The notes under the pieces were generated by a model, which saw only the letters and a list, made by a program, of their open reading frames with translations, did no database searches and was not told the DNA's origin. This document shows positions 9,540 through 53,492 of a stretch of 64,000 nucleotides of DNA, in pieces (within the stretch, counting starts at the first letter, position 1; the number at the start of each line of letters is the position of its first letter). Source of the DNA: Parietichytrium sp. I65-24A (lineage: Eukaryota > Sar > Bigyra > Thraustochytrida > Thraustochytriidae); the NCBI GenBank assembly GCA_012862575.1, contig BLSF01000036.1, positions 186,001-250,000 of the forward strand, written 5' to 3'. The position numbers and the translations under genes are program-made.

Positions 9540-12293
9540 TGTCTCGTGATGAGCCACGGGAACTCTTGCCTTTCTTTTCCAAGGCAGGACACTCTTTGAT
9601 TGATGCTTGTTCTGATTGTTGTGTTGTTTTGGTGTTTTAGTGTTTTGGTGTTTGATGATTGCTTTGCATTTGAGTCTTGCCTTCCCGAGGGAGCGAAAAT
9701 GCTCTAGTCCCGGTCCCTTGCCCACGATGTACCCTGGAAACAACACTCTGGGCCCAAAACAGTTGCGAGTGGACTTTCCCTACTTGCAACTGAGAAGTGA
9801 AAGCCTTCAGTCACGCCGTTCTCTCAGTGGAAATCAAGCGACTTGTGACAGCAATGCCAACAATTTTAAAGACGATTCACTGTCAAGTTTGCTGCCACCA
9901 GCAAAGACAACAGGTGTCCACAGTCAAACTCTCCAGCTCTAGAGCTAGACTCGCTGTAATTGTGCGGTCAATGGGCAAATGTGCACTTTTTTGCCTCTAA
10001 ATTCGTGTGAGCAAAAGTCTCGGCCTGAACTTAAAAGTAGTGCAATTGCCACAAATATGAGATTGGTTCCACTTCTTCTTGCGTCAAGCCGAAGTAGTTC
10101 AGCGGCGTACAATACTGAGTGTGTTGAGTAGTGCACTGATTGCGAGTGTACAATACGTGTGCAAACTTGCTCTCGTAAGCTGGTTCACAGTTTTGCAGCT
10201 TTACAGCTCAGATTTCTTGTACCAAAAATAACTGTTTTTTCCGAGGCACCATGCATACATGACCTTCTCTCCTTCTCTTCGCCTCTACAACTCTACTAGC
10301 GAATGGACTAGCCCGAGCGCATTCACTGTTTCCTATCCCAAATCGCTAATGCACTGGTACCATCGATGGCCCAGCCCAACTCGCGCTGAACCCTTCAGTA
10401 GCTAGCTAGTGCTATTTGCCAGTAACTGTTTTCTACATGTGTGGCACGAAATTGAACATTGGCTCATGTATCTAGTAGAGTTAGCTAACAGCTTGCTCTA
10501 TAGTTTAGTGCACTAGATTTCAGGTGGTATATACTACCATATAGTGGAAAAGCATAGGGTGTGTGGAATGTGGTAGAAGCCAGGTTAAGGGGCTCTCGTT
10601 ATAAAACCAGTAGACCAGAGGAAACTGTGGCTGAAGAAGCTCCCCGTGGTACTACCCTAATAATAGTAGTTGGACATTTACAAAGTTAACATGAACTAAC
10701 TTACTGTTATTGTGTGTAATGTACACGTACGCAGTGGCAGTGGCACAGGAACTAGTAAACGGTTAGTTCATTGACAGAGTGATCAGCCTGAGTAAGGATA
10801 TGGATGGCTAGGTAAAAATCGTAGGGCACGAGCCCAGCTGGCTCTTCTCAAATTTGGAGTTTCCAGCAACGACCACTGACCACTTGGCAGATCTTCTGCA
10901 CCCCACCTTCCGATAGGGTTTGTTTACGCTCTCACTTCGTGGCTTCACTTGGATCTGCTGAAGATCAGCGAATTTTGGAGGCGGTGTTTCGTTCGGTCCA
11001 CGGAATACCAAGGTATGGCCGTGTCCGTGGAGTCTTGCAATGTACTGCTGCGCGCGCCACGGGGCCATCGAGACAGCGCTAAATGACCAAAAAACTGGAG
11101 AGAAATTGGAGCGTTGGTCTAGTTGGTCTCGCCTTGATCATCATTCTCTCATGCTTTTTTGAAAGTCATACGTTTTGAGCAATCCGAGAATGTTCTCGCT
11201 TGGCACGGTGGTGGTTATCTACTATTATTTCCAATAAAACGGCGGCGCTGTCGCTCCTCGGCTAGAATATGTTCGAAATTCGAAAGAAGTGAGCACATCT
11301 TTGCACCTCGTCGTTGTCTTCTGCTGTGGACGTATTTGCTCATCGGCTGGCAACAAATGGTTGGCTATCTCATATTTGCCAATCAGGTCGAGTCTGAAAC
11401 TCTATTTCGCGTCAAATGCGCATGTGATCAAGCCAAGGCAAACTTGGCCATTTGGTTCGCAGAACAAAACAGGCTGGTTCAGAGTTGATTTTTTACGGCT
11501 CTTTGTTTGCAAGAAACCTTGCCATCATGTCAGCGCGGATGGTCGCAACGATTGCCTCAAATAGTCTAGAAATCGCTGATCAAGGTGCGAGAAAATGGGC
11601 GATTCTGCAGACTCAGGAGAGCTGCCAAGCTCGATTACTGAAGAACTCTGCCTCTCGAGAATTAGACAGTGTTACAACTAGTCCCGCCCGGCGTTCTTCT
11701 GAGCAACTTTTCGTTGTTGACTCTTTTTGGCCAGCTCTGTTTCGGACCCTTGTCCCCATTTGCAATAATTGCCAAAGCCTGCGTTCTCGCTTCGGGAAAC
11801 TTGCAAGCTGGCACATAACATGTCCCTGGGGGACATTGGCGTCCTGCGCAACTTGAACCTAGAACCGAACAATGGTCCTTCGCCGAAGCAGATGGCAATT
11901 TCGAGCCTCATGGACGGGGGGGGGTGGCTTCCACCAAAATCTATACATACATCTTTATGGACAGAATTCTGAACTGCAAGATCAGCTGTGATCGAGAGAG
12001 TCACGGTTTCCCACTTCAGCTGAGTCCGGACCAAGTACCGGTACCTCTGTGACGATTCAAAACGAACCGCAAAAGGAAAAAGCCAAAACGACTCAACTTG
12101 AACACACCTTCCATGGCTGTGTGCGTAAAGATTGCGTACAAGTACTTAGCGGGGGCTTGTCTTCATGTAGGGTTCATTCCCTCATTCGTTTTTCGCAACT
12201 GGAAGAAGAATGAGAAAAGAAGAATGAGATAAGAAGAGGATCGATCATAAGAGTACTCAAAAGTGTCCTCGCAGGGCTCGCGTGTGAGACGCG
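9540..12293. other. Large gene-free spacer (2.75 kb)
   Basis: No supported gene on either strand. The open frames are short, overlap in several frames and contain no motifs. An ATG-rich AT segment runs at about 10.2-10.75 kb. I looked for tRNA B-boxes (GGTTCGANTCC) and found none that fold with an A-box. The spacer separates two divergent genes (hydrolase and ankyrin), so promoters must lie at both ends, but no specific site is recognisable. Confidence 0.5.
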
Positions 12294-33349: not shown

Positions 33350-36300
33350 ATGCGGCACACGAAAGGCGCCAAAGAGAGGGCGTCATACAGAGGACGGGAC
33401 GAGAGCCGGAGCGCGAGCCCGACGCGGCGTTCAAGACCTGCGAGCCAGAGGATGAGTGCGGGGCTGTCGGATAGCGAGGTTGATAGACAGAGGCAGAGCC
33501 AGAGGCAGAGTCAAAGTAGGCCGGAAAGAGCGAGCCTCCAAAGACAAAGCCAGAGACAGAGCTTGAATAGACAAGACAGAGCGAGCATGCAGAGACAAAG
33601 CCAGAGACAGAGCTTGAATAGACAAGACAGAGCGAGCATGCAGAGACAAAGTCAAGGGCAAGGGCAGAGACAGAGCCAGATGGCATCCGTATTGTCAGAG
33701 CGCAGAGTGTATGACCAAGGGCCTGGTACAAGAGCAAGTATCGGGTTTCACGAGTGGAAAAGGTCTTCGTTGGAAGCAGCTTTAAAGCACGCTGGAGTAG
33801 ACGTTCCCAAGCACGCTTCGCATGAGGACTTGGTAGCGCTTGCGCGGAACAGATTTGACGGAGACGCCCGGAGATCGCTTCCTGTCAATAGTCATGGCTA
33901 CAAGGTCAGGTACACGTCGCGTCGAACGGGTGTGCGATACGTGGAAGCGCCTCCACTTTCGGAGCCGCGGGAGAGGCCCAGCAGCGTTCCACATGATAGT
34001 TTTCTATACTTTCGAGAAAACCCTGTTCTCGCCGAAGCTGGTGGCAGGGAGATCCTCGGCTCGACTCCTCCGCCGTCAAGCTTCCGCTCGATGCAGTCTC
34101 TTCTTGAAGACGAAGAATCTGGTGTGCGTCCGTCTCTAATGGAGCTGGACAACGAGGACGACCTGATGGAGCGCAGGCAGCTTCGGCTTGAACGGGCCAT
34201 GCACGAGGAGTTTCTCAAACCGTCCATCCGTAAGGCAAAGGAGTATGCAAATGACCACCATCCGCGTATGAGGAGCGGAAAGCCTTATCCCCTCTGCGGA
34301 ACCTCAACTGGGCGCCATTGTCTTCGCTTTGGGCCATGCGGGGAATACATTTGCGGTCCTCGCGACTCAGATTTCGCGAGATTTGGCCCTGGAGTAGTGC
34401 TATACTTTAAGTGGCTCAAATGGCTGTCTTGGGTGTTTGCCTGCTTGAGCATGATTGTCTCTCCTCAGCTATTTTTCAACCTCACATCCTACACAGGAAA
34501 CTTGTGGACCGGGATAGGACTTTTGGAGGCGACTGAGCTATCTAGCATTTCCGAAAATGGTTTGAACCGCACTTATGTATCTTCGATCGTGGTCGGTGGC
34601 TTTCAAGTCGTCAACCCCTTCCTTGACTGTAACGAAGAATGCCTTCTGAACAGGGAAAATCTTGCCTATCTTTATTCGTACACAAACATCGGCGTTGCTG
34701 GGTTTTTTATTATCGCCGTAGGATACTTGGCGTTGTTCGAGCAACTTGAAGAGCATCGAATCTCCAATTCCTCGGTTTCTGTGGATGAGTACACTGTGCA
34801 GTTGGTGAAGACTCCTCCGGGATGCGGAGAGGGCTCAATCAAGCGGTTTTTCTCAGAGGTCACTGGCGAGCCTGTCATGGAGGTGAACATAGCCAACAAC
34901 GACGGCAAATTGATATCTCACTACATGAAACGAGGAAGGATCATCCACAAACTGTGGAAAGCTGCGTCCCGAGTGTATTTGCTGAGAGAGGCCAAAGCTA
35001 AAGCGGAAGCGGCCGCTGTTGGCGCTTTGATGGACCAGCGTCGTAAGTCATTGCAGCGCGCGAAACGCATCTCAGAGCGTCACTCGAGGCCACGATCAGG
35101 AGGAAACAGACAAAGTCAAGATGGTCGAATTTCGGTCCGCGTTGATCCAATGACCAGTTCAGACGAGGAAGTGACTCCGCGGCAACACAGATCGCTGCCT
35201 CAGCCACCCCAACGCCAGCAAAAGAAACAGAGGCCTAAATCACTTGAGGAGGTAGAGACTCCTGAACAGCGCACCTCTCTTAGGGTAAGTAGCCGAGACA
35301 GTCGCCGAATCGTGGTCAGCCGAGACGGCAGGACGAGGCCGCGATCTGGGCCTCAGGACTTACAGCAAAATCAACGCCCGCAATCTCGCCGTTACAGTCT
35401 TGTGTTGTCAATGGTACAATTCAGAGATGCTGTCGAAACAACTGCTGAAAAGGTGGGTCTGGTGGAGTCTAAACTTGGGCGCGCTGTTGCTCAGTACGAT
35501 CACCTATACGCTCAATTCGAGAACTTCAACGAACGACACCGCAGAATCCAGGCTGGTACCACTGCAAAGTCGGCGTTCATTACCTTCGAGTCTCAAATTG
35601 GCTATTTGCGATGTCTGGACATCTTTGCAGATGGGAGCGATCTCAAATTCCAGGGTATGCCCGTGGAGATCCGGCCTGCACCGCCTCCAAGCACAATTGT
35701 GTGGGAGAATTTTGATTACTCGCGGTGCAGCAAAATCTCAAGACGGATGTTGACCACGTTCTTCGCGCTTCTGGTGGTGTGCTTTTCCATTGTCTTGACA
35801 TACTCTGGCACCGTCACAAGGCAGGTGCTCAAGAACGAAATTGCCCAGTCCAAGTGTATTTTACCGTTCAATGTGTCAAGCATTGAGGATTTGGGCTATC
35901 TGTATGACGAGAAGGCCAAGGAGGTTCCTAAAAACCAAACCCTGCTTGACTACATTGAGGACATGTACTTGGAGTGTGCATGTGGTCTGGTGACATACAG
36001 TCAGGCCGCCTCTGCGGCCATAGATCCGAACAACCCTTGCTTCGACTTTTGGGTTGACAAGGCGCCATTCTTTGGGTATACCTTCATCATCACTGCTGGC
36101 ATTGCTTTCACAAACTATGCAATCCGTGTTATTCTTATTCGCCTTGCAGAGTTTGAAAAGCATCAGTCCCTCGTTGCGATGGAGCTCAGTTTGTCGTTTC
36201 GAGTCTTCATCATGGTGCTTCTCAACACCGGGCTAGTCGTGTTCCTGGTCAACTTTGACTTTACCGTCTTTGGTTTGGACCAGTTCAGCGCGCTAAAAAT

Positions 36301-37225
36301 CACGGGCTACTCGGACTTTGTTCCAAACTGGTTCTCGGATGTTGGTCTCCAAATCATCCTGATCATGATTGCAAACGTATTTGCTCCACACCTCTTCCTC
36401 ATTGGCGAATACTGTCTTGTTCGCTGTTACAAGAGGAACCGGCGATGCAAGCGCCCATCTTCTCAACGCGAGCTCAACGAGTGGTACACTGGCCCGTTGT
36501 TCCGCATCAACTACCGCGTTGCTCACAACCTTATGACATTGTTTGTCACAATGACATTTGGACCAGGTATTCCAATCCTCTACCCGATCGCTGCCCTCAG
36601 CTTTGCGGCATACTATTGGGTTGACAAGTACATGCTCATTCGCTATTACCAAAACCCTCCGCGTTACGATGCACGCTTGGCCAACCAGTCTACAAGGACG
36701 ATGCTCTTTTCTGTCCTTCTGAATCTGGCGGCTTCGGTGTGGATGTATAGCTCCCCGGGACTATTCTGGTACGCTGAAACAACGGATGAGGACGATGGCG
36801 GTGTCTTTGGCAACGCTTTCGACATTATCTTTAATGGATCGCAAGGTGAAGCGATACAGGCGGTCAGGACCAGGCTCACGCTGCCATTCCTTTTTGCGCC
36901 GATACTATTCTTTGTCATCTACGCTTTGGTGTTACTCTTGTCTAGAGCGTTCAAGCGTGTGGAGCGGCTTTTGCTCAAGCTTGTGAATATCTTGTTCTGC
37001 GGTCTAATCTCCTTTTTCAGCGTTCTGACGGTGTACATCCACCCCTCTCTGTACGTCGCACGCAAGAGAGGACTGCTTCGTGGGCTGGACTCGTACTCGA
37101 TTCTTCGGAATCCGACGTACTCCAACGCATTCGGAATCGACGAAAACTTTGCAAAGCGACATCGCACGGTTCAATCCATGCAAAATCTCACTGTGGACCA
37201 GCTTCCGACTTTGCCGGTCGTCTAA
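33350..37225 (+). CDS. Large polytopic membrane protein, OSCA/TMEM63-like (1291 aa)
   Basis: The ATG at 33350 opens a frame whose first 120 residues are Arg/Ser/Gln-rich, including a 51-nt tandem duplication that encodes repeated QRQSQRQSLNRQDRASM units. A second in-frame ATG at 33452 is also possible. A cytosolic segment with CGEYICGPRDSDFARFGPGVVLYFKW leads into two membrane spans. A long charged cytosolic loop follows with an RNA-recognition-like strand (SAFITFESQIGYLRCL), as in OSCA/CSC1 channels. About seven further spans then include TFGPGIPILYPIAALSFAAYYWVDKYMLIRYYQNPP, similar to the OSCA/CSC1/TMEM63 seven-helix region. These proteins are mechanosensitive or osmosensitive cation channels, or scramblases. 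TMC-type channels are the main alternative. The substrate and gating are inferred only. Confidence 0.7.
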   Translation: MRHTKGAKERASYRGRDESRSASPTRRSRPASQRMSAGLSDSEVDRQRQSQRQSQSRPERASLQRQSQRQSLNRQDRASMQRQSQRQSLNRQDRASMQRQSQGQGQRQSQMASVLSERRVYDQGPGTRASIGFHEWKRSSLEAALKHAGVDVPKHASHEDLVALARNRFDGDARRSLPVNSHGYKVRYTSRRTGVRYVEAPPLSEPRERPSSVPHDSFLYFRENPVLAEAGGREILGSTPPPSSFRSMQSLLEDEESGVRPSLMELDNEDDLMERRQLRLERAMHEEFLKPSIRKAKEYANDHHPRMRSGKPYPLCGTSTGRHCLRFGPCGEYICGPRDSDFARFGPGVVLYFKWLKWLSWVFACLSMIVSPQLFFNLTSYTGNLWTGIGLLEATELSSISENGLNRTYVSSIVVGGFQVVNPFLDCNEECLLNRENLAYLYSYTNIGVAGFFIIAVGYLALFEQLEEHRISNSSVSVDEYTVQLVKTPPGCGEGSIKRFFSEVTGEPVMEVNIANNDGKLISHYMKRGRIIHKLWKAASRVYLLREAKAKAEAAAVGALMDQRRKSLQRAKRISERHSRPRSGGNRQSQDGRISVRVDPMTSSDEEVTPRQHRSLPQPPQRQQKKQRPKSLEEVETPEQRTSLRVSSRDSRRIVVSRDGRTRPRSGPQDLQQNQRPQSRRYSLVLSMVQFRDAVETTAEKVGLVESKLGRAVAQYDHLYAQFENFNERHRRIQAGTTAKSAFITFESQIGYLRCLDIFADGSDLKFQGMPVEIRPAPPPSTIVWENFDYSRCSKISRRMLTTFFALLVVCFSIVLTYSGTVTRQVLKNEIAQSKCILPFNVSSIEDLGYLYDEKAKEVPKNQTLLDYIEDMYLECACGLVTYSQAASAAIDPNNPCFDFWVDKAPFFGYTFIITAGIAFTNYAIRVILIRLAEFEKHQSLVAMELSLSFRVFIMVLLNTGLVVFLVNFDFTVFGLDQFSALKITGYSDFVPNWFSDVGLQIILIMIANVFAPHLFLIGEYCLVRCYKRNRRCKRPSSQRELNEWYTGPLFRINYRVAHNLMTLFVTMTFGPGIPILYPIAALSFAAYYWVDKYMLIRYYQNPPRYDARLANQSTRTMLFSVLLNLAASVWMYSSPGLFWYAETTDEDDGGVFGNAFDIIFNGSQGEAIQAVRTRLTLPFLFAPILFFVIYALVLLLSRAFKRVERLLLKLVNILFCGLISFFSVLTVYIHPSLYVARKRGLLRGLDSYSILRNPTYSNAFGIDENFAKRHRTVQSMQNLTVDQLPTLPVV
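33540..33641 (+). repeat. 51-nt in-frame tandem duplication in a coding region
   Basis: Two 51-nt copies (33540-33590 and 33591-33641) differ at one base and encode 17-residue QRQSQRQSLNRQDRASM-type units. A partial, degenerate third copy follows to about 33680. The unit length is a multiple of three, so the copy number can change without breaking the protein. Confidence 0.9.
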
Positions 37226-39709: not shown

Positions 39710-41387
39710 CTATGTGGCGCCTTGCGTCAACGGAGTGGAACCAGTGTCACCAGCCACGCCTTGACCAGAGTTTCCCACACTCATGCAAGAACGAGCCACG
39801 GACTCAAAGAGGCGATGAATCTCCGGGGCGCACTCCATAAACGAATACTCCCAGAATTTGTACTGCTGATTTTTGATGAGCTCAATAAACGTGATCAACA
39901 AGCCCCATGGATGAGGACGATGTACGATCAGTCGCTCCAACAAGACCCTGGTAATCTGCTCCCTCACAAGATCACTCTCAGTTTCCTGGAAAAGGTACAG
40001 CAGCAGGCAGCTAAAGAAGTGTGTATGGCTGCTTGGAAAGCGGAGCTGGTTCGCTATGCCATTCAGGCACAAATACCGACCTTCCGGATCCATGTCATTA
40101 ATAATATGCTCAAACAACCCCAATGCACTCAGTGACTTGGACTGCGTCAACAATTGCATAAGCGTCAGATTCGCGTTTTGTGGCTGGGCGCGAAGGCTTT
40201 TCAGTTGCCCCACAGCATGCACGCCAGTCGCATACATGAGCGCGTTAATGAGTGGGATATTATGTTCAGTCTTTCCGGCAGCATCAGTTAAAATCAAACG
40301 GTCCTTTAAGTCAGCCAAGAATTTGACCGGCTGGCCGTTGCTTAAATAGCCCTCCAAATCGGCCTTCAAATCAAATTCTGCAAGGGCGCTTTGAAAGTTG
40401 GACAGCACGTTCGGTGGCGTTTGAGCTTCCACAAATGAGTCCAGTCTCAACACCGCAGGGAGCTGCATAGAGCGAGGGAAAGCCGAAAGAATCAGATTCC
40501 TTAGCTGAATACACGATGGGGGAATTGCATCGCAAAAGGACAGGTGGAAGGCGCACAGGAACTCCGGGAAATCATGTAAGAGTACAAGAAGAACGCGAAG
40601 AGTACCCTTGTAGAGCAGTCTGATGGGGGGCGAAAGCTGTATATCCTTCAAGAATGGGTACAAGAAGCTCAACACATCCACCACCAGCGTTTCGTAATTG
40701 AACCAAGCCTTCGTGTCGCTACCACGCAAAAGCTTGGGCATGAAAGACTTGTGCGAAATCAGCTCCAGCCAGGCAAAAGAAAACCCTGGCACCATGCGTG
40801 GCTGTATGCGATGATATGCATCCGCAAACACAGCCAACATCGCAAGAATGTGATCCTCGCCAAGTCCTTCAGCCTCAATGGACTCGACAAGATCAACCTG
40901 CAAATTAAGAAAGAGACGGAAGTAAGGTCGCTGATCCAATCCCGCGTCTACCCCCCTCTGTCTTCGCAGCACAAACTCTCTGCACAGCACACCTGAAATT
41001 ACTTCGAGCACCATCGAAACTAAAGATGTTCGAGCGCGAACTTCTGCATACTTTACCAGAAGGACCACAAGCTTGGAGAAGGCGTCGATTGCGATGAAGG
41101 AGACAGACTTGCGCCCAGGGCTCCTTTGCGGGGAATTTGTGACATTCTGAGTAAGAGAAGACTCCACACAAAGCTCAGTCGTGATGCGAAAGAACCTCAT
41201 CGCATTTTCGTCGCCGTTTAGAGCACCTTGCTGTTGCAGGAGACTCAGATATGGCCTATGGGCCGATTCATGCGAGGCACCATCGGGTAAAGAGCAAATT
41301 TGAATCCATTTTTGCAAAAGTTGTAGCACCTGCTGTCGCATTCCTGCCGGATCGTTCGATCGGAGAAACAGGCCTGGCACCATTTGT

Positions 41388-41429
<42 letters not shown>

Positions 41430-44400
41430 GATTGTTGCTTTTGTTGCTGACCAAGAGGCTGCTGTTGAAAATCGCTGGTGGCGATCATCTTCACGTTCTC
41501 CAACAGCTGCTGAAGGCCAGAGCCGTCAGGCCCACCTGTCTTGCTCCTCAGCATGACAATCTTCTGGAGAGCATCAAGCGTGCCCAACAGCTCGGGGACG
41601 AGAACACTACGGCTTACAAGAACGCAATCTTGGATAATGTCCATAGCGAATGAAATTGCTGGGTTCTGCCTGGTGTCTACCAACTTTGCAAGGAAAGTAT
41701 CGAATTCCTGCATGATGACTAACTTGTTGCGAATCAAGCCGCAAGTAGCTGCGCGATTCAGTACGTGCTCTGGCGGAGCATTGATTACCCACTCAGTCAA
41801 GTTGCTCTTAAACATCACCTGGTCCTTCATGAACTCACGGAGTATGTTCAAAACTGACAGCTGGATCTCAAGGTTAAGTTTGTCATTTGGCCTGATTTCA
41901 TAAAGCCTCTTGAAGCACTGCTGCACAATGTACATCGCCGCATCCTCTCGATCACGAGACACGGTTGCCGAACCAACACTTCGCATCTCCCGAAGTAAAT
42001 TGACAATCTCATGGTCCCTTGGAAGGCGCGAGAGCGAAGAAAGGGCTCCAGGGTTTTGCGCTGCGAGTTCCTGGACGGATCTGTCCAGCTGCTGGAGGCA
42101 AGAAATCCATTGTTGCTTGGCTTGATTTCCGGTCATTGTCGCATTTGTCGGCGACTCAGACCGCATGACACCAGGCTTTCCGGAAGCTCCAGGTAGTCCC
42201 GCTGCGTTTCCACTAGCGAGCTGGGCGGGTGCGCCGCCCAAATTCTTGAGACCTGATGAAACTGAAGCTCCTGGAGCAACAGCATTTGCTGCGGAAGCCC
42301 GGTTGGGCGGCACAATTGGCTGGCGCGGGCTTCTCTGAAAAGCTTCGTAGATCAAAAGCTGGTGAGGCTGAAGTCCGCTAGGGTTCGCAGAAGGGCGAAG
42401 GTGATCTGGAAGTCCGTTGGGATAGCTACTCCCAGTCTGAAATATGGACATGTCAAAATATGGCTGCCCGTGCTTCTCTCGCGATTCTTTGCGAACCATG
42501 AGCGCCCCTTCAATCTGTTCGTCAATATCTCTCATCGCCTTTTCAGTGGCTGCTTTTTCAATCAGCATACAACCAAGCTCCAGATTCTCGGAAGCGCAGA
42601 CTTGAACAACTTGCTCGACTAGGCTTTGATCTTCTCTGGCCGTCACCTGTGTGAGCAGGGATCTGAGGTGGTTACCAATTGAGACGCGAAGTGGCTCTTT
42701 GCAAGTGACAAGCGCCAGAGCGCCCGCGAGATTGGATACCATCAAGTGCGCAGCTTTGCGCATTTTCTTCTCGTCAGGCTCCATGGCAAAGTCCTTCGTA
42801 ACCATCTCCTTCGCAGTGATGCAAGCGATGGTTACGGAACGCTCCACAACAGGCTGGATGATTTCTCGGATCGCACGGTCCACAGCGACTGGTACCACGC
42901 GGCGCAACGAAGAATTCTGCGAGAACAATTGCAGGCCCTGATTCACGTGCACGTACGCTGCCAGATTTGGAATGACAGTCTGCTCAGGAATGTCTGCGAT
43001 CTTCCCTTCTCCTTCACGGCCCTTCTGAGCACGTTGCTGTTGCGAAACGTCCATAGATGGTCCTTGGCTCTGCATTCCGGATTGTTGCATTCCGAGTCCT
43101 GGTGAGGACGGTGTTGGAAGACGCTTGGCAGGCTCTGGAGTCTTGAAGTTGAAATCAGGATTTCCTTCGAGACGAGGCTTCCTCCTTGTGCGAAGCAAAC
43201 TTGAGGGCGGTATTGCCTTCAAATCAATGTTCAAAGACTTGCAGAGAACCTCAATCTCAAATTTGAGATTGAGCTTGAGTTCTTCCAGATGGTACAGCTC
43301 CGCGAGAGCGCTGAGAATACCCATCAGCCAGGGGTTGTTTGGCGTGAATACCGTTGTGCTCTTCGTTCCGTCCAAAACCTTCGCAACAAACGGCACAACG
43401 GCGATAAGCCACCCGCGCTCATAACCGTCAAAGAGCAGATTTTTGAGGTCCACCTCTCGATGCAACAGGGGTTTGTTTTTGGCAAGCGTCAGCCTTCCGA
43501 GCCAGGAGCCGAAATTTTTCAGTAACGATCGCTCGGAAGTGGACGACACAATATCACTGCTCTTCAACAACTTCTTTACAGTGTAGAGCGTGCGGTATCG
43601 AACATGCTTGAGCAATTCAGGTTGATCAAGCTGGTCGAGGAAACCCATGTACACACCGTGGAAATTCGGCTGAGTGCTTACCCTCTTGGCGACTAAATAG
43701 TACGCTACCCACTCGAAATTCTCAGGTTTGACCAGATCTTTTGCCTGGGCAACCTTCTCGTCCATATTTCTCTGAGTGAGATTGTTGATGACGAAAGTGA
43801 TCTTGTCCTCTACTTCGCTATTTGGAGGTTCGACAACGTCACCCACATCCTCACCCACAGAGATGAGTTCGTCGAGACGGGCATAGAAAGAGGAGTTGGG
43901 CTCCGTAGATCGCTCGCTGCTTCGAAGAGGAAAAGCCTCGCTCGGACCTAAAGGTGGTGTGGTAAAGCCCGACTCTATTTTGGGACCCGGATTTGGTACT
44001 TTTGCTGCAACGCTGGTGGTGACATCAGTTGATGGGAACGAAAACGAAGTTGGAAGACTCAACTTCGTTTCGAGCTCTCGAACGAGCTCCGGGTAGCGGT
44101 CCTTTAGGTGAGGTATTTTCACCACTTGCGCAGCTGTCTGGGGCCACTCCAACAGCCTCTCCTTAAACAAGTCCAGTGCAAACATTCCGAACCGAAACAT
44201 TGGTGAGGTGACAGGTTTCCTTAACGCTTCCAGAACATAACGCAGAGCAATGCCGAGAGCCATGCTGGAGAGTAACTGGTGCTGAATCAGCGAACCAAAT
44301 AGCACCCCGGTGATCTGCAACTCCTTGTCAGGATACTTGTGCAAGAACCTGTATTCATCTAATAGGTTGTGCGCCATGCAGTTGAAGATGTCCTGTTCCA

Positions 44401-46729
44401 GCTGATTTTCAGAGTTGCGCAAATTTTTGAGCATCTCCACGATTTCGGCAGTCGTCTTTTGCGACTTGTAGATCGTCTGGAGATATACGTTTGCTTGATG
44501 CTCAACATATTCAGCGTTAGAAGACCCTCCCTCCGTTGTACTCTCATTAGCGTTGCCACTGCCCTCAGCACCGCCAAGGCTAGGGTCTCCCGAGTTTGCC
44601 AAGGTGGTCGACTGCTGCTGCCCAGCCGCGCCAGGAGCTAGCTGCATCAGCCTCATGATGACCTGGTTGGCTTCGTTCACAAACTCTGCCGGAAGAAGGC
44701 CGCGGCTTTGCATCATGGTTTTGAGGCATTTGAAGAACGCCTGAACTTCCTCGGGCATGAGCGCCAGGCCAGCGTTTGGTTGATGTTGAGGATTTGTCTT
44801 CAGCTGCAAAATAATTAAAAGAGACCGAGCAAAGTTCTGCAGCGCCGCAGTGCCCTGCTGCTGGGAGGTCTGCAGCATCTCAAAGAGCCAGCGCTCGAGA
44901 TTCAAAACTGGAGGATCGCGGCGAGAAGCGAAACATGCGGCGTCGTAGACGAGCCGCGGCATAGGCAAGGACAACAACTTGTTAATCCCATCGTCTTGTT
45001 GCCGTGCGATATCCACAATGAACGGTAGAAACTTGGCATCTCGGGCATACATGGCCACCAAGGCCCGAAGGAGAACATAATGATTGATTTCCCACACTTG
45101 CTTGACAGTCGCAAGCTTTGGGGCGAGAGGTTCTTGCCGTTCGCTAATGCTGAGCAAAAACTTTGGCAGCAGCACTGCATACATTTCTTCGCGGAGAGTA
45201 TCATATGGAGACTCGACTAGGAGCAGCCCAAGAAGAAGAACCTCTGGGAATCTTCCTAGAGCATCCTCAAACAAGATTTTGACATGGTGGTAAAACCCGC
45301 GCCCTGCGAACGCATCCAGAGTCGACACAACGTCAAGTGACTCCCACGCACCGTTCGGGCTCGTGTTGACCCCTCTAGAGACAGAGATGGAAGGCCGGGA
45401 GGCCGAGAATGTGGAAAAAGTCACATCCTCCGGAGGGGAGTTGATTGCGTGGAACAAAATTGCCATCTGGGCACTCTTGTTTGACAACAGCCTCCCCGGT
45501 TCTGCAGAAGTGTCGAGCAGCTGGATTCCTTGAATACATTTGCCGTTTTCAAGCAGTTTGTGAGCTTTCACGATAAGCGCAAAACCAGAGCGGTCGAGGT
45601 TCTCTAGAGAGAGATCCACGCTGTCGTCTAGAAGGTGTTTAATGACAACCTGTCCGCTCAAAGGGCCAGGATGCAACTCCTTCGCCACCTGAATAAACAC
45701 GGGAATATTCCAGCCAGTCGCTGCTGACGACGATGAATTGGCGAGTCCAGAGCTTGTGTCAGAGAGAGACAGCTTTCCAAACTCGAGCTGTAGACTGGAG
45801 GTCGCTCCAAGGGCACCACCGGTGCTCTTTTTCAAGAACTTCGTATTGGTGCGTGCCATCATGGCCAACACGTGAGCGACATCCGCAGACGAAAGCTTGG
45901 CTTGCCTGCTTTTGAGCAACTCGCTAAGTACTCCACGAAGCGTATCCGCGCTGGCAGTGCAAGACGGTCCAAAATCTTCCAAAAAGTCGTTCACCGCGAG
46001 TTCCATGGAGATTTCTGCGCAACCAAGCCGCACCGACTCAGTCTGTGGCAGCGAGCCCTCTAAAAGGTCTACGCACAGCGAGTCGGCAAGACAGAGAGGT
46101 GCGACCTGCACCGAACCAAATGCCGTTGGGAAAGCCGCCTCCAAGGTAATCATGCAGCTAGACCCCAGGTCCTGATCCGCCCCAAAGACGAAGTGATTCT
46201 TGAGCAGCCAGACCACTTCGCTGATCGTGTCAGCATCTACGTCCTTGTCAGTAGAATCCACCAGGCCAAATACAACCGAGGCCAGAAATTTGCCCCCTTC
46301 TTCTGCCACACCTTTTTCCGAGCTCTGCGACAATCCCCCGGCCGCCGCCAGCAGCTGGGAAGTGCCCAGCTTGAGCTTCTTGCGACACGTCAGCTCCAGC
46401 TGGTCCGCGCTAAGCGCCTCGGGCTGTTTGCCATCTCCATTTGGGCTATTCTCCAAACTCACAGCACCATGAATCGCGCGACGCATCGCAGCTCCGAACC
46501 CAGAACGGTTCTCGCGCCAGAGTTTTCCTGCCAGCTCCGCCGCTAGCTGCATCCGCAAATCATTGCCCTGACCCTGCAGCAAGCACGAGAGACAGAACAC
46601 GGCGGCGTCCTGGCCGTACTGCGCCACCAGCGCTCTCACCTCACTGGCGCTGGCATCAAAGTTCTTCTTCGAGAGCGCTTCGCACAGAAACTGCAGCTCC
46701 CAGAATACGGGCGAAGCAAAGTAACCCAT
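39710..46729 (-). CDS. CNOT1: CCR4-NOT complex scaffold NOT1 (CNOT1), 2339 aa
   Basis: I start at the ATG at 46729 (MGYFASPVFWELQFLCEALSKKNFD); upstream in-frame codons lack ATG. The length and domain order match NOT1. HEAT-type N-terminal helices come first. Near 770-865 is DIFNCMAHNLLDEYRFLHKYPDKELQITGVLFGSLI, the region that binds tristetraprolin in animals. The MIF4G domain that docks CAF1 is near 965-1195 (ITFVINNLTQRNMDEKVAQAKDLV). The CN9BD/DUF3819 region is near 1280-1430 (IREIIQPVVERSVTIACITAKEMVTKDFAMEPDE). The C-terminal NOT1 superfamily homology domain ([38 protein letters not shown]) is near 2040-2330. NOT1 holds the deadenylases CAF1/CCR4 and NOT2/3/9 in the cytoplasmic mRNA-decay complex. 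A polyglutamine run lies near residue 1760, between CN9BD and the C-terminal domain. It is unbroken by introns. Confidence 0.95.
41383..41450 (-). repeat. Polyglutamine-coding CAG/CAA tract in NOT1
   Basis: On the coding strand a mix of CAA and CAG codons gives about 15 consecutive glutamines plus flanking Q-rich residues. The codon mix suggests old, stabilised expansion. Confidence 0.9.
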
Positions 46730-47987
46730 CGCTGCCCCGCCGTGTCCTCGCAGAAAACAAAAGACGGGAACCAAACCACGAGATCTCCCTCGACAACCTG
46801 CCTCACAGTCCTTTACTCAAAATACACAATCTCTTAATCTCTACCGTCGCAGAAACACAAACTGCTCCTCTTTCTCTTCTCTCTCTCTCTCTCTCTTCTT
46901 CCTCTTCCGACCCTTCCTTCTCCTTTCTAGTCCGCCTTCCTCTCGCTCTCTCGCGCGCGCGGCTGCCGCAGAGTAGAAGTGGCTAGTCGTGCGGTAGCGT
47001 ATCCTCTGGGTGCGCGGATGAGTCGCCCGGTACGCGGTACGCGGTACGCGCGGCCGTTGGTTGCGGGAACGTTCCGCACCGCTGAATAACAACCCGCGCG
47101 CCGCTCACTTGTTCGGCACTCACGCTGCTGCCTTCTTTCCCTGCTGTCCTCGCTCGCTACTCTTATTGATACGATTCCTCGCTAACACTGCCCGCGGACA
47201 CCTGCCCGCCTTCCCTGCTAAGTAACTGCTGGGGCAGATCCTTACTCCTTGCTTAGCCAAAGACTACTGCATCTACTACCGACCTAACTTTTTTCCTCCC
47301 TTCCTTTCTCGTCTTCCTTGCCTTTCCTTTTTCCTTTCTCCTTTTCTTTCTCACAAGATCTTAGATGCATAGCGACGGCTACTGCAGTGGTAAGACGAGG
47401 AAGATCAGCTGCTGCTGACACGTCTGACACGTGGGAGTACTTAGCGCATTCGTTAAGACCGTCCTGGAATGAGTGGGGAATATGAGGGAATGAATATATG
47501 AGCGAATAGGGATGAATAGGGGAAGGAACCAGGAACCACGAGGCTGGTTGTAGGACTTAAAGAATAGGATTTTGTTCTCTCGAGTTCTGGACCTGGTATC
47601 TCTGCGATTTCTGTGATACTGAAAAAGAGAACTCAAGTTACATGTTCGGATTTGAGCAGAAACCGAATGCTTCATCAAGTTTTGGAATGAAGACCTAGCA
47701 AACTGAAGGCAACGAGGGAACAGTGTATCACAAATCAAGTAAGGCTTCCTACCTCAAGAGCGCTAGCTAGCGTACTTCAAATATAGAAGGAACCAAACTT
47801 CCGAAACTCTTGTTGCGGCAAGCAAACGCAAGCCAGCAGGTTTGCCAATTTGCCCCGCCCCCAAATACAAGGCTTGCTGAGATTAAAGCTGTCTGTTGTT
47901 GGTTTATAATATAAGCAAGATCGTCTTCCAACTTCAAACTTTCGCCAACGTTGACAGAATGGGCAAAAAGTCTACGGAATGGGACAA
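46730..47987. other. Spacer between the NOT1 and SulP genes
   Basis: Both genes are on the minus strand, so this holds the NOT1 promoter and the 3' flank of the transporter. A (CT)n-rich tract (about 46858-46930) and a GGTACGC triple repeat (47029-47050) lie just upstream of NOT1. No gene seen. Confidence 0.5.
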
Positions 47988-50900
47988 TCAATTTTCGTCT
48001 GGGAAAACAGCGTGATGGAAGTCCTTGCTGCCAGATGTCTGCTTACCTCGCTTGTTGGAGTTGTTCATTGGCACAACTGAATTCGAACCGCGCACCTTGA
48101 ACGACTGCATGGTCCCTTTGGTCGCGGAGTTTATCATATTTGTAACTTCATGAATGGCATTCTGTGCCATCTGTTTGGTTTCGGCTAATGTGTTCGAAAA
48201 GCTATCTACATGCTGCTCTTTGGCGATGGAATTGATGTATCCAAAAGCCTCGGAAGCCTCCACCTCGCAGCGATGAACCGCAGAAATAGTCTCAATCCAG
48301 CTTCGAAATGACACATACCCCTCTTCATCCGTGTCAGCCTCGAAGATCATTTCCTCGCAAGCTTCCAAGGAGATGTTATAACCCAGCTGCTTCCGCCACA
48401 GACTTTGAATGCTCTCGGGGCGAATGCCAATGTTTCTTGTGGCTAATATGTCCCATCGGTCTTTCGTGGAGAGGTGTTCCCCCCCAATAATGTCGTTCTC
48501 TCCCGCGAAAACATCTGCACCAGCCTCATCTGCGCATAAAATTGCTCTAAAAGTCCGTTCCACATCAGATTGCAGCCGTTCGCGTTTGATAGCAAGGGCA
48601 ATAATGGAGATAAACCCTGAAAAAGACACAACAGATTTGGGAAAATCGTTCGGGTCAAGACGCCAGTCACGAAATAAGGCGTTAATTGAAAGCGAGCTTG
48701 CCCGGATTCCAGCATCGCGCAAGAGCTTAACTAATCCTTCCATAGTAAGCACTTCAATCATTTCGCAGGGGGCATCATCTTCACCTGAACGGAGCGGTAC
48801 AGGTATGCTCTCTTTGTACATGTTCCACACCTCTCGACAGCACTCTCGAATGGGAACCGTAATAGGGTAGAACGACAGCATGTTAACAATGTTCAAAAAA
48901 TCGCTGCAACTCACTTGTGACTCGTCTCTCATAGACGAGGTCGAGCTGTTTCGGGCAATCAAGTCGTTGTCCACAAAGTTTACTGCAGCGGGTTTGCGGG
49001 TTTCACCAAGACCTTGCGGTAGGAGGCCAATGACAGACCCGCCACCATTGACCTTTGAATCTACGCTGGTCGTGGCGTTATTGGAGACGTTGGAGGGAAA
49101 TGCGACGGACGTGATACTGGCTCGAAGCTTGTGCAGAGAAACACCCATCATTCCCAGCATGCTGTTTCTTCGTGGCGGTACGCTTGGTCTTTGCGCCCCT
49201 TTCAAGGCATCAAAGTGCTCACGATTTTGCTGAAAGATAACCCAGAATGGGTGGGTTTCAGCAAATATACTGCGCAACGAATTGAGCGAAATTTTGAGCG
49301 CCACAAGAGTTTCCGAGAGAACAGTTACGGTTGCAGCGCGCTCTTGGTCGGTGGAATAGAAGGCAAGCTCCCCAAGCGTGAAACCGGCCTCTTTCCCACA
49401 TGTCGAGCGAGTAGTAACTTCCGACTCGGAACCTCTCGGCTTACTAAGAGACACCTCCCCGTTGATAACTAGAAGCAAGTAGTCGCCAAAACTTCCGTGG
49501 TGCCATATGGTGACTCCTTGCTGGTACTCAACCACTTCGCACTCTGAGGCAACCCGAGCCAACATGAAACTGTCCGTTTTCGAGAGGTTTTGGAACAAGC
49601 TGAGAGTGCTCAGGGCAAGATAGCGCTTTCCAAAAGGAGCGCGCTGTTGAGTAGCGAGTACAGAATCCAACTTCTTCAGCATGCTGTCGGCAATGAAAGA
49701 TCCGCTGGAAGCATACCTTTTGAATGCTCGACGTTCCAGCTCAAGTCGCTTGGGGTGCCTACTTGGAACTACCTTAGAAATGTCATCCAGCTTCAGTTGA
49801 ATCACAATACACTTTGCGCCATACCCCTCCGTGCTGTACGCTAGCTTTGCGTTGGTACCCGGGGGCAGAAAAATTAGCTCTTCGCCAATTAACGCAGGTC
49901 CTGCATCGGAACTCGACTTCAGGACCTTGTGTCCACTGCTGTATGTCAGTTTCATGGTACCTTCAATCACAAGAAACACTTCGGAAGCCTTCTCGCCTGC
50001 CTTTCTAACTACATCCAGGTGGTTATACACATGCAAGGTCCCCTTGCTTGCGAGCTGTTCAATTGCACCGCGAACGTTCATCTCCAACTCCTGGAAAGCA
50101 GGCACAAGACTTAAGTTTGACCGGACGATTGAAAAAAGTTGCGCGCGTGGGATGATGGTCTGATCGATAGTTTTACAGCCTTCCGGAATCTGCGACACCG
50201 GTACTCGGGCTTTCGTGAGGTCCAGCGACGAGCCGCGCCGGTCCGTCGTCACCCAAAGCTTGTTTTCTAAGAGAGCCCTCGCCTCATGAGTAGTCATGTA
50301 ATGACCAACATCTTCCAGTAAAGATCGAAGGTCTGAGGCATTCAGACTTCCTTGGCCGCTCGGATCACGTGCTTTGAAACATATTCGACAATCCATTTCC
50401 TCCTTGCGGCTCAAGCGCAGGACGCCCTTATTCTCACTTTTTGGGTCCCCAATCGGGTCCACTTCCGTATGATTGATTACCTCCATGGGACTGCCAGGCA
50501 GAACAGATTGGCTATGACTCTTCTCAAGCTGCCCATTGTGCCTTCTAGTTTGATGCCCGCGAAAGTTGTGACTGGAAACGTAGCCATGACTGCGATCGTA
50601 TCGAACTGCCATAGCCCAGCACACTGCGGAGCATTCTTCAAGGGCGAAGAATCCGACATTCGCATCGCTGACCTCCATTTTGTCGTCATGCCTCAAGGTA
50701 TCCCGAAGTGCGTTGGCTTTCTCACTCGTTGCCAATTTTAAAATTGCACTGATGAGCGAGACATCCACGTCTCGAGGCTCCTGTCGCTTGACCTCGCCAA
50801 CCACTTGGGCTTTTCGTTTGAGCTTCATTGACTCTGTGGTTTTCTTGCCGCTCAGGTCGAGCCCCTTGACTGCCTTGTTGCTGCCAAAACTTCGGTTTGA

Positions 50901-53492
50901 GCTCTCCATACTCATCGCGCCCTTCCCACTCCCTGTGCGAAAAGACCGGAGAGAGCTCTCCATTGGAAATTCTTTGAGCGAGCCCGACTCCCGCGACATG
51001 AGAGAGTCGCGACGGACCGATCCTCCGGCAGCTCGCCCAAATAGGTCCAAGTCGATGACCTCGCGCTCCAAAGTCATGTTCTTGCGAAAGTAGTTGTTAA
51101 GAATACTTTTTTGCAAAGCAATAAAGATATCCGAACGCTGATTTTGCAGCTGTTGCAGTGAGGTTTGGGAAATCCCCAAAAGAATGGTGTTGGAGGTGTC
51201 TGCAACGATTTTAAAGGCGCTCGAGGCGGTCATGAAGAGCGCACACTCGTTGATGTACGCTCCTCTAGTGTACGAGCAAAATTTTCTCAAGATCCCACCA
51301 GCATCTGAGTAGTGAGCTGAGCACTTGCCCTGTTGAACGATGTACATAATTCGAATAGGGTCCCCAGGTAGGCACACTACATCCCCCTTCGCAAGGTTTG
51401 TGCGACTGATGTTGTGGAGGACTTCATGACCCAATCCTATTTCTGATATGATCTCCTCTAGAGCGTCGTGTTTGACTTTATTCTTCGCTACCTCATGGTA
51501 TTTCGTCACGGCTGGAAACTCGAACCATCGACTGCGAACCAAGAATGCCCACTCAAGAAGCTGCTCTTCCACCCACTCCACGGCAAAATCCATGGTATCG
51601 AACACATCGGTGATCTTGTCGTAAATCTTCTCACGGAGAAAGAATCGAATGATTTTTTCCTCCACACCGGCGAGCACAACCATTACGTTCCGCTTTTTGA
51701 AGTAGTTGACAACCTCTCCGAAAACAAGAATTCCGCTGTAATCTATACCGTAGACATGAGACCAATCCACGATAACGTACGCCAATCTACCCGCGGAGTT
51801 CAATTGCTCTTGCTCTTTCATAACCGTTTTGCAGAGATCAAGCATTTGTCCCGCGGAGCCAAAAAAAATGAAGTTTTGCAACTGAATTACTGCGAAACGA
51901 CGCGAAAGGTGAAGAAGCTTCTTGCTCTCTGAAGTGCTTCGCACAACGTTGGATTCATAATCACATCCTTGTATGTACGCTCTGATCACCGTCAATTTGC
52001 CATAATTAAAGACAAAAAAGAGGGAAGAGAGCAGCAAGCCCACAGTGACTGCCATCAAGAGACTTGTAAAGGCGTGGACAATAAAGATTGCCCAGATCGT
52101 GAAGTACTCTTCCTTTGACACTCGCAGCCTCGACCTGACTAAATTTTCGTGAAAGAACCCAACTCCTGCGTAGAGCACGAGACCTGCCAAATAAAACCTG
52201 GGCAGAAAATTAATCAGAGGAAACCCCCAGAAGTACAGAATACCTGCAAAGAATACACACATGACCGTCGGAAGTCTTGTGGTTTGATCTTGGGTCACAC
52301 TATAATTTAAAAGCGTGAATTTTGTCTGCGAGTAGCTCGGCACGCCAGAGAGAGTGATGGCGCTAGCTAAACAGGCTTGCCCTGCAACTTTCAGTTCCTG
52401 GTCAAAACCAAAGTCAATACCTGTCCCTTTCTTGCTCCCTGCAAGCTTGAGCAGGTAATCAACGACCACTACAATCATCATTGGTGGCAACTCGATCGTA
52501 GAGCGCCACCACGCACCAAAATTCACGTTCTGAAAAGAAATTGTATCATATACCCCCCTGGGGCGTGAAGAACTGAACTCTTGAAAGAACCAACCACCTT
52601 TGCAGCTGGCCTCGTTCTCTACGTCAAGACATTGCACACGAGCATCTTCCAGTGAGGTACCGTGTATTGCCAACGAAATGTAGAAGACTATCAGCGGGAA
52701 CGAGAGGAAAAAAACCATGATAGTTGCTGGAGGAGCCACGTGCAAGCCCTTTGCAACGGGGAGTCCAAGCCCAATGGGTAAAGAAGGTAGAATGAGCTTC
52801 CAAAAAGTCACCGTATTTATGTGACTGATGAAAATCTCACCAACAGCAAGGCTGATTGCCGCTTTGAGGATCTTGTACCCAATACATGCCAGGAAACCAT
52901 ATAAGATGCTTGCTGGAACGTACTGAATTAGTCTGCTCATGCGGAACACCACGAGCAAATTGAACACAAGGCCAATGAGTAGCGTAGAGACTGTGATTGC
53001 AAACAATATTGTTGGAACCACCTCTTCTCGACTTATTGCAGATTCGCCGTTGACCTTAAAGTTATAGATCGCTTGAGCCATGTAATGAAGAAATAGAGCT
53101 GGGTTGATGTCAGGTGCTGCCACGGAAGGCGGGCAATTGGAAAAGCACGCGTACAATAATGAGCCGATCACCACCGACAATAGGTGCATCTCGAGCCCCA
53201 TGGGCAAATAGGAACTCAGTACCAGCCCATGGTCTGCTGTGGTGGGGGAGTCCTCAAACACAATAATTGCAAATACGCAGCAAAACACGAACACCAACAA
53301 CCCGTTCATGAAGCCGGAGATAATGTGTATGGCAAGATTCGAGTGCGTACATTCTCGCCGCACAAGCTCCTTGAAAATATCAATTGATCCCCTTTTCTGA
53401 TGCTTCTTTAGGTCGACCGAGGTCATCGACCTCGCAAGTCCGCCTTTTATGGCTACGCTCGAAACCGAACCTTGGCCTTGGCGATTCTTCAT
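47988..53492 (-). CDS. SulP-family transporter with STAS, three cNMP-binding-like and two EF-hand-like segments (1834 aa)
   Basis: I start at the ATG at 53492; the frame upstream lacks ATG. Residues about 50-500 are a SulP (SLC26) transporter core with many membrane spans and a STAS domain near 560-640 (LAYVIVDWSHVYGIDYSGILVFGEVVNYFKKRNVMVVLAGVEEKIIRFF). The closest known relatives are the fungal vacuolar YGR125W/Vsb1 type, which has a cyclic-nucleotide-binding-like domain. Here three cNMP-like beta rolls are visible: near 690-790 (LAKGDVVCLPGDPIRIMYIVQQG), near 1130-1235 (VVRKAGEKASEVFLVIEGTMKL) and near 1300-1420 (GVTIWHHGSFGDYLLLVINGEVSL...GELAFYSTDQERAATVTV). An EF-hand-like loop sits near 1035 (KARDPSGQGSLNASDL) and another near 1715 (FEADTDEEGYVSFRSW). 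The substrate is probably an anion or a basic amino acid; calcium/cNMP control is inferred. Confidence 0.82.
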   Translation of the reverse strand: MKNRQGQGSVSSVAIKGGLARSMTSVDLKKHQKRGSIDIFKELVRRECTHSNLAIHIISGFMNGLLVFVFCCVFAIIVFEDSPTTADHGLVLSSYLPMGLEMHLLSVVIGSLLYACFSNCPPSVAAPDINPALFLHYMAQAIYNFKVNGESAISREEVVPTILFAITVSTLLIGLVFNLLVVFRMSRLIQYVPASILYGFLACIGYKILKAAISLAVGEIFISHINTVTFWKLILPSLPIGLGLPVAKGLHVAPPATIMVFFLSFPLIVFYISLAIHGTSLEDARVQCLDVENEASCKGGWFFQEFSSSRPRGVYDTISFQNVNFGAWWRSTIELPPMMIVVVVDYLLKLAGSKKGTGIDFGFDQELKVAGQACLASAITLSGVPSYSQTKFTLLNYSVTQDQTTRLPTVMCVFFAGILYFWGFPLINFLPRFYLAGLVLYAGVGFFHENLVRSRLRVSKEEYFTIWAIFIVHAFTSLLMAVTVGLLLSSLFFVFNYGKLTVIRAYIQGCDYESNVVRSTSESKKLLHLSRRFAVIQLQNFIFFGSAGQMLDLCKTVMKEQEQLNSAGRLAYVIVDWSHVYGIDYSGILVFGEVVNYFKKRNVMVVLAGVEEKIIRFFLREKIYDKITDVFDTMDFAVEWVEEQLLEWAFLVRSRWFEFPAVTKYHEVAKNKVKHDALEEIISEIGLGHEVLHNISRTNLAKGDVVCLPGDPIRIMYIVQQGKCSAHYSDAGGILRKFCSYTRGAYINECALFMTASSAFKIVADTSNTILLGISQTSLQQLQNQRSDIFIALQKSILNNYFRKNMTLEREVIDLDLFGRAAGGSVRRDSLMSRESGSLKEFPMESSLRSFRTGSGKGAMSMESSNRSFGSNKAVKGLDLSGKKTTESMKLKRKAQVVGEVKRQEPRDVDVSLISAILKLATSEKANALRDTLRHDDKMEVSDANVGFFALEECSAVCWAMAVRYDRSHGYVSSHNFRGHQTRRHNGQLEKSHSQSVLPGSPMEVINHTEVDPIGDPKSENKGVLRLSRKEEMDCRICFKARDPSGQGSLNASDLRSLLEDVGHYMTTHEARALLENKLWVTTDRRGSSLDLTKARVPVSQIPEGCKTIDQTIIPRAQLFSIVRSNLSLVPAFQELEMNVRGAIEQLASKGTLHVYNHLDVVRKAGEKASEVFLVIEGTMKLTYSSGHKVLKSSSDAGPALIGEELIFLPPGTNAKLAYSTEGYGAKCIVIQLKLDDISKVVPSRHPKRLELERRAFKRYASSGSFIADSMLKKLDSVLATQQRAPFGKRYLALSTLSLFQNLSKTDSFMLARVASECEVVEYQQGVTIWHHGSFGDYLLLVINGEVSLSKPRGSESEVTTRSTCGKEAGFTLGELAFYSTDQERAATVTVLSETLVALKISLNSLRSIFAETHPFWVIFQQNREHFDALKGAQRPSVPPRRNSMLGMMGVSLHKLRASITSVAFPSNVSNNATTSVDSKVNGGGSVIGLLPQGLGETRKPAAVNFVDNDLIARNSSTSSMRDESQVSCSDFLNIVNMLSFYPITVPIRECCREVWNMYKESIPVPLRSGEDDAPCEMIEVLTMEGLVKLLRDAGIRASSLSINALFRDWRLDPNDFPKSVVSFSGFISIIALAIKRERLQSDVERTFRAILCADEAGADVFAGENDIIGGEHLSTKDRWDILATRNIGIRPESIQSLWRKQLGYNISLEACEEMIFEADTDEEGYVSFRSWIETISAVHRCEVEASEAFGYINSIAKEQHVDSFSNTLAETKQMAQNAIHEVTNMINSATKGTMQSFKVRGSNSVVPMNNSNKRGKQTSGSKDFHHAVFPDEN

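Follow-up and report, generated by a model that had tools for sequence, protein, structure and literature searches.

A thraustochytrid SulP-STAS transporter with three cyclic nucleotide-binding-like domains and calmodulin-like segments in a single open reading frame

A single open frame on the minus strand of the window (i.e. the entire 64,000-nucleotide stretch of DNA analysed here) was found to encode a 1834-aa protein in which a SulP membrane domain and a STAS domain are joined to three cyclic nucleotide-binding-like domains (designated CNBD1 to CNBD3) and two EF-hand-like segments. This arrangement had been proposed in a sequence-only reading and was confirmed by the open frame and by Pfam; the number and positions of the domains, then called by eye, were correct, CNBD2 and the EF-hands being the weak calls. 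We consider it probable that the protein is a SulP-STAS-CNBD transporter with a structural CNBD1, a degenerate CNBD2, a CNBD3 that acts as sensor and a calmodulin-like tail whose calcium binding is doubtful. It extends a known type of transporter in an unusual way and is no new kind of machine. The features of the gene are as follows, with the supporting evidence in brackets.

47988..53492, minus strand: whole ORF, 1834 aa, single open frame (frame reading, codon bias)
51978..53330, minus strand: membrane domain, residues about 55-505, with Pfam Sulfate_transp at 97-468 (Pfam, alignment)
51585..51899, minus strand: STAS domain, residues 532-636 (Pfam)
51555..51605, minus strand: STAS-to-CNBD linker VFDTMDFAVEWVEEQLL, residues 630-646 (alignment with four bacterial proteins)
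51138..51398, minus strand: CNBD1, residues 699-785, cassette without Gly and Arg (Pfam, CNBD profile)
50118..50405, minus strand: calmodulin-like segment 1, residues about 1030-1125, loop DPSGQGSLNASD at 1043-1054 (Pfam, calmodulin alignment)
49764..50099, minus strand: CNBD2, residues about 1132-1243 (Pfam 1159-1213, sub-threshold), Gly-Glu present, no Arg (Pfam, profile, model)
49257..49595, minus strand: CNBD3, residues about 1300-1412 (Pfam 1321-1412), cassette GELAFYSTDQERAAT at 1374-1388 (Pfam, profile)
48255..48752, minus strand: calmodulin-like tail, residues 1581-1746, last loop DTDEEGYVSFRS at 1720-1731 (calmodulin alignment, paralogue tail)

The frame runs on the minus strand from the ATG at position 53492 to the stop at position 47988 and comprises 1834 codons with zero internal stops. 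The codon bias of six other long ORFs of the window is also present in this frame, although the signal is weak: in a scan of 90 segments of 40 codons, 6 of the 90 scored slightly below 0, and in five another frame tied or won, two of these five corresponding to residues 941-1000. It appears very improbable that two adjoining genes are here read as one ORF, or that an in-frame intron or an assembly error joins them. Such a split is suggested by the long low-complexity linkers (residues about 815-1030 and 1420-1570) and by the weaker frame signal at residues 941-1000, but is opposed by the run of 1834 codons without a stop and by a paralogue on another contig (C51), in which a single 1666-aa open frame contains both chain ends. 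By eye, the DNA encoding residues ~892-1032 revealed no strong GTGAGT/GTAAGT-type intron borders; such borders flank the introns that were read by eye in the SulP gene of contig C27. Assembly fusion and a split gene were rejected on the basis of the C51 paralogue, whose head and tail are homologous to those of the window protein. Because an uninterrupted frame of this paralogue links a calmodulin-like tail to SulP, STAS and one CNBD, an assembly artefact can be discounted for the base architecture. The concern of a fusion through assembly error, raised with the original proposal, is thereby answered for both ends of the chain, but the paralogue is silent on CNBD2 and CNBD3, which are absent there.

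The gene adjoins a CCR4-NOT scaffold (CNOT1) gene, which encodes 2354 aa in one open frame (39713-46774, minus strand). This neighbour and the C27 introns mark the genome as that of a eukaryote. The window also encodes a 1291-aa protein with a PHM7_cyt domain, as in OSCA/TMEM63-type channels (33350-37222, plus strand), and a 789-aa protein with a Pfam Beta-lactamase domain and five BTRD1 repeat stretches (7380-9746, minus strand).

The membrane domain matched Sulfate_transp (PF00916) with 41.9 bits (curated cut-off 23.2), and the STAS domain (PF01740), located C-terminal to it, scored 41.1 bits (cut-off 22.6), both of which place the protein in the SLC26/SulP family. When the window protein was aligned with four plain SulPs from its own genome, its Phe70 fell in a TM1 column that holds Gln, Gln, Lys and Glu in the plain proteins, its Phe74 in a Tyr column, and its Phe392 (adjoining Lys391) in a TM10 column with Arg in two of the four plain SulPs and Gly and Gln in the other two. 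PMC13160679 equates the SLC26 Gln of TM1 with Asp-223 of the yeast transporter Vsb1. Through the plain SulPs, Vsb1 itself lying outside the alignment, Asp-223 and Tyr-227 of Vsb1 would correspond to Phe70 and Phe74, so that the position of Asp-223 appears to hold Phe rather than an acidic residue. Asp128, within APDINP, lies near the start of TM3 and is at most a candidate counterpart of Glu-278, the carboxylate at the TM3 start of Vsb1. Since the TM1 acid of Vsb1 seems to be absent, the window protein is not called a cationic amino-acid transporter.

In total, 11 Sulfate_transp matches in nine places were identified in the genome, including the window gene, with the genes on contigs C8 and C27 matching twice. 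The nearest relative of the window gene, on contig C51 (P0002, L007:1986-6983, minus strand), is the 1666-aa single open frame referred to above, and resembles the window protein in its SulP-STAS-CNBD1 portion and its calmodulin-like tail. The two proteins share 35% identity over a 582-column membrane/STAS segment, and two-sequence comparison gave E-values of 2e-108 and 3e-25 for SulP-STAS-CNBD1 and 3e-11 for the tail; a search of the genome with the tail (residues 1581-1746) matched C51 at E 2.8e-4. The paralogue differs in possessing a single cNMP stretch (Pfam) and two large inserts (about 78 and 128 residues) that lie within and behind the STAS domain. When searched against its own genome, the CNBD2/CNBD3 region matched only itself at E 0.001, and the function of the pair is consequently without a conservation argument; judged by these comparisons, CNBD2 and CNBD3 are a feature of the window gene itself, absent from the C51 paralogue. 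Among the other SulP genes, that on C45 (899 aa) and the scanned part of that on C27 each showed one cNMP match and no EF match by Pfam. Scans of viral_contigs and genome_contigs with the full two-row alignment (A1) retrieved no relatives. The second-messenger repertoire of this genome (G000) is large, with at least 121 cNMP_binding matches, at least 149 matches to EF-hand pairs (from scoring 150 of 461 candidates) and at least 29 cyclase-domain matches.

A full-length Pfam scan of the window protein reported three PF00027 (cNMP_binding) stretches. When the protein was scanned in pieces, CNBD1 (4.5e-10; 39.8 bits against a cut-off of 27.5) and CNBD3 (1.9e-10) scored above the cut-off, and CNBD2 (0.0035) was the sole CNBD of the three to fall short. 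Comparison by hhalign with a CNBD profile, built from the best 19 of at least 121 PF00027 matches in the genome, gave probabilities of 96 for CNBD1, 97 for CNBD3 and 63 for CNBD2. The best structure model of CNBD2 reached a pLDDT of 64 and a pTM of 0.60 (the other four models ranged from pLDDT 59 down to 38), the underlying alignment consisting of CNBD1 and CNBD3 and the model hence being partly circular; a single-sequence model of residues 650-1420 was rejected at a pLDDT of 32. All 50 PDB matches listed for the CNBD2 model belonged to CNBD or CRP-type proteins, the query TM-scores being low (0.35-0.50). The moderate-confidence model of CNBD2 therefore resembles CNBDs, which constitutes support for the fold and not proof.

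The 19 genome CNBDs, which as high scorers are biased towards canonical sites, carry the Gly-Glu of the phosphate-binding cassette in 18 cases and the Arg in 17. Within the window protein, only CNBD3 has a complete cassette, GELAFYSTDQERAAT, with both Gly-Glu and Arg. CNBD1 (NECALFMTASSAFK) displays Asn-Glu with neither Gly nor Arg, the cassette of the C51 paralogue (NEDALFVEYPLSHT) likewise lacks Gly and Arg, and CNBD2 (GEELIFLPPGTNAK) has kept Gly-Glu and lost the Arg. As for the other two SulP-CNBD genes, the C45 cassette has Gly-Asp and Arg and that of C27 has neither element. The cassette pattern was drafted after the sequences had been seen and, at a rate of 0.01 per shuffle, is no independent test. 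The Arg of the CNBD3 cassette is followed by Ala, the residue of cAMP-type sites. One of the three CNBDs, CNBD3, thus looks ligand-competent from its sequence, a complete cassette falling short of proof of binding.

Pfam EF-hand matches were obtained at residues 1033-1076 and 1694-1730, both below the cut-off. Aligned with calmodulin of the same genome, the two regions scored 63 and 70, whereas their shuffles averaged 28 and 31 (z 7.3 and 8.1); none of 500 shuffles reached either score, and three other stretches of the window protein gave z values of 1.4, -0.5 and 0.1, which identifies both regions as members of the calmodulin superfamily. Furthermore, the tail of the C51 paralogue aligned with calmodulin over almost its full length (z 11.3), even though Pfam reported no EF-hand in that protein at E 10. 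The loops themselves are imperfect. Neither DPSGQGSLNASD nor DTDEEGYVSFRS fits the strict EF consensus, and neither loop is a canonical EF-hand, one having Gln at loop position 5 and the other Ser at position 12. The loop at 1043-1054 has Asp, Ser, Gly, Leu and Asp at positions 1, 3, 6, 8 and 12, and the last loop of the C51 paralogue (DMTGNGGVSYDD) ends in Asp, whereas that of the window protein ends in Ser. Both window loops fit a looser pattern, which was drafted after the sequences had been seen and, with 0.05 per shuffle, offers no independent test. Calcium binding by these loops is accordingly graded as doubtful from their residues. When segment 1 was compared with the stretch preceding the paralogue tail, 7 of 500 shuffles reached the score, and the unrelated stretch 1131-1290 performed about equally in the same comparison (8 of 500); because the result is borderline and matched by an unrelated stretch, homology of segment 1 to that stretch of the paralogue is not claimed, and an insertion of CNBD2 and CNBD3 between two calmodulin lobes is no more than a candidate history.

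In the reading that we favour, the protein would be a eukaryotic SulP-STAS-CNBD member of the SLC26/SulP family, probably homodimeric and with cytosolic C-terminal modules. CNBD1, directly after the STAS domain, would serve as a ligand-free structural coupler of the tail to STAS, by analogy with the RmlC-like domain of Vsb1. CNBD2 and CNBD3 would form a tandem pair, in which CNBD2 is the degenerate partner and CNBD3 binds cyclic nucleotide, plausibly as a cAMP-type sensor, and the presence of at least 29 nucleotide cyclase domain matches in the genome was counted in favour of this role. Nucleotide binding at CNBD3 would alter how the tail is coupled to STAS and to the transport core, and the calmodulin-like tail would have a mainly structural role or would weakly bind a divalent ion or a partner.

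The sequence-only reading had suggested a transporter gated by both cyclic nucleotides and calcium. This is only partly supported and is weakened by the residues: the cassette is complete in CNBD3 alone, CNBD1 and CNBD2 both lacking the Arg, and neither EF loop is strict. That transport is under dual control, by cyclic nucleotide (CNBD3 and perhaps others) and by calcium through the EF loops, is considered unlikely. The complete CNBD3 cassette, the relationship of both EF regions to calmodulin, the retention of Asp 1, Ser 3, Gly 6, Leu 8 and Asp 12 in loop 1043-1054 and of Asp at 12 in DMTGNGGVSYDD of the C51 paralogue all speak for it; yet no loop is strict (Gln at 5; Ser at 12), the EF Pfam scores are all sub-threshold, with none in the C51 paralogue, and the cassette Arg is absent from two of the three CNBDs. 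A more specific two-messenger SulP, in which cyclic nucleotide would act via CNBD3 (with CNBD2 as its degenerate partner), a divalent ion via the calmodulin-like segments that flank CNBD2/CNBD3, and gating would pass through CNBD1 and STAS, is regarded as improbable. At the other extreme, all C-terminal modules might be ligand-free scaffolds for dimerization, trafficking or partner binding. The loss of the CNBD1 cassette residues in both the window protein and the C51 paralogue, the worn EF loops and the Vsb1 precedent, as argued in PMC13160679, are all consistent with such scaffolds, but CNBD3 has kept a whole cassette despite its diverged chain, and this reading is rated rather unlikely.

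Among the titles listed from the open-access literature, none described a SulP that combines several CNBDs with EF-hands, which is a weak absence, and relatives of the same architecture may well exist among eukaryotic proteins. If CNBD3 binds cyclic nucleotide, a SulP carrier would be under direct second-messenger control. The sperm NHE (SLC9C1), in which a carrier is joined to a CNBD, is a comparable case. Moreover, the window gene and the C51 paralogue offer a naturally occurring comparison between a gene that has the extra CNBDs and one that lacks them, and raise the question of why CNBDs are fused to SulPs in both bacteria and eukaryotes.

The SulP-STAS-CNBD base architecture is, on domain composition, not new but already bacterial. 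A tblastn search against plasmids returned seven records, the first of the five matches listed, from a cyanobacterium, covering query residues 92-815, through CNBD1; a scan of genome_contigs with the membrane-domain alignment (A7) returned eight bacterial loci, two of which (L042 and L043) were read, and the same alignment found no relatives in viral_contigs. Sulfate_transp, STAS and cNMP_binding were present in all four bacterial proteins scanned, which were drawn from these 15 records or loci (Acaryochloris, Gloeothece, Herbaspirillum and a Desulfobacteraceae MAG). These four resemble the window protein in domain order, a similar STAS-CNBD linker, an FFGS/FFGT motif and their side of the tree. 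Unlike it, they comprise 737-753 aa as scanned, with one cNMP match and no EF-hand match at E 0.01. By eye, both Gly-Glu and Arg are present in the Gloeothece and Herbaspirillum cassettes, the Arg is missing in Acaryochloris and the Gly-Glu in the Desulfobacteraceae protein. On Acaryochloris plasmid pMB03 (L050 1372-5070, plus strand), two annotated SulP genes lie in tandem, the first encoding a SulP-STAS-CNBD protein.

The seven SulP-STAS-CNBD rows of an 11-row membrane-region tree were separated from four plain SulPs by a branch with support of 100/99, and the window protein paired with the C51 paralogue at 100/99; the four plain rows had been trimmed to the Pfam domain, the branches of C54, C42 and C45 are long and the make-up of the Herbaspirillum row deviates. 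This grouping, and the location of CNBD1 (residues 699-785) directly after STAS, assign the window protein to the SulP-STAS-CNBD group. The CNBD2-CNBD3 pair resembles PKA-R and PKG in having two CNBDs in tandem, with a cAMP-type cassette in one; in contrast to these, the pair of the window protein is carried on a transporter, and its CNBD2 site is degenerate. Pfam identified no kinase domain in the window protein.

Vsb1 is assumed here to group with the SulP-STAS-CNBD proteins. According to PMC13160679, it is a yeast vacuolar SulP transporter that has STAS and, at its C terminus, a single RmlC-like domain; this domain is essential for activity, nucleotide binding being judged unlikely and its role unclear. 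Domain terms had no match in the first Vsb1 paper (PMC7440668). Vsb1 thus shares with the window protein the succession of SulP, STAS and a beta-roll domain, but the passages considered in PMC13160679 describe one C-terminal domain and mention no EF-hands, as against three CNBDs and EF-like segments. The contrast originally drawn with the single domain of fungal Vsb1 is therefore a fair one, but the SulP-STAS-CNBD base on which the window protein is built is also found in bacteria.
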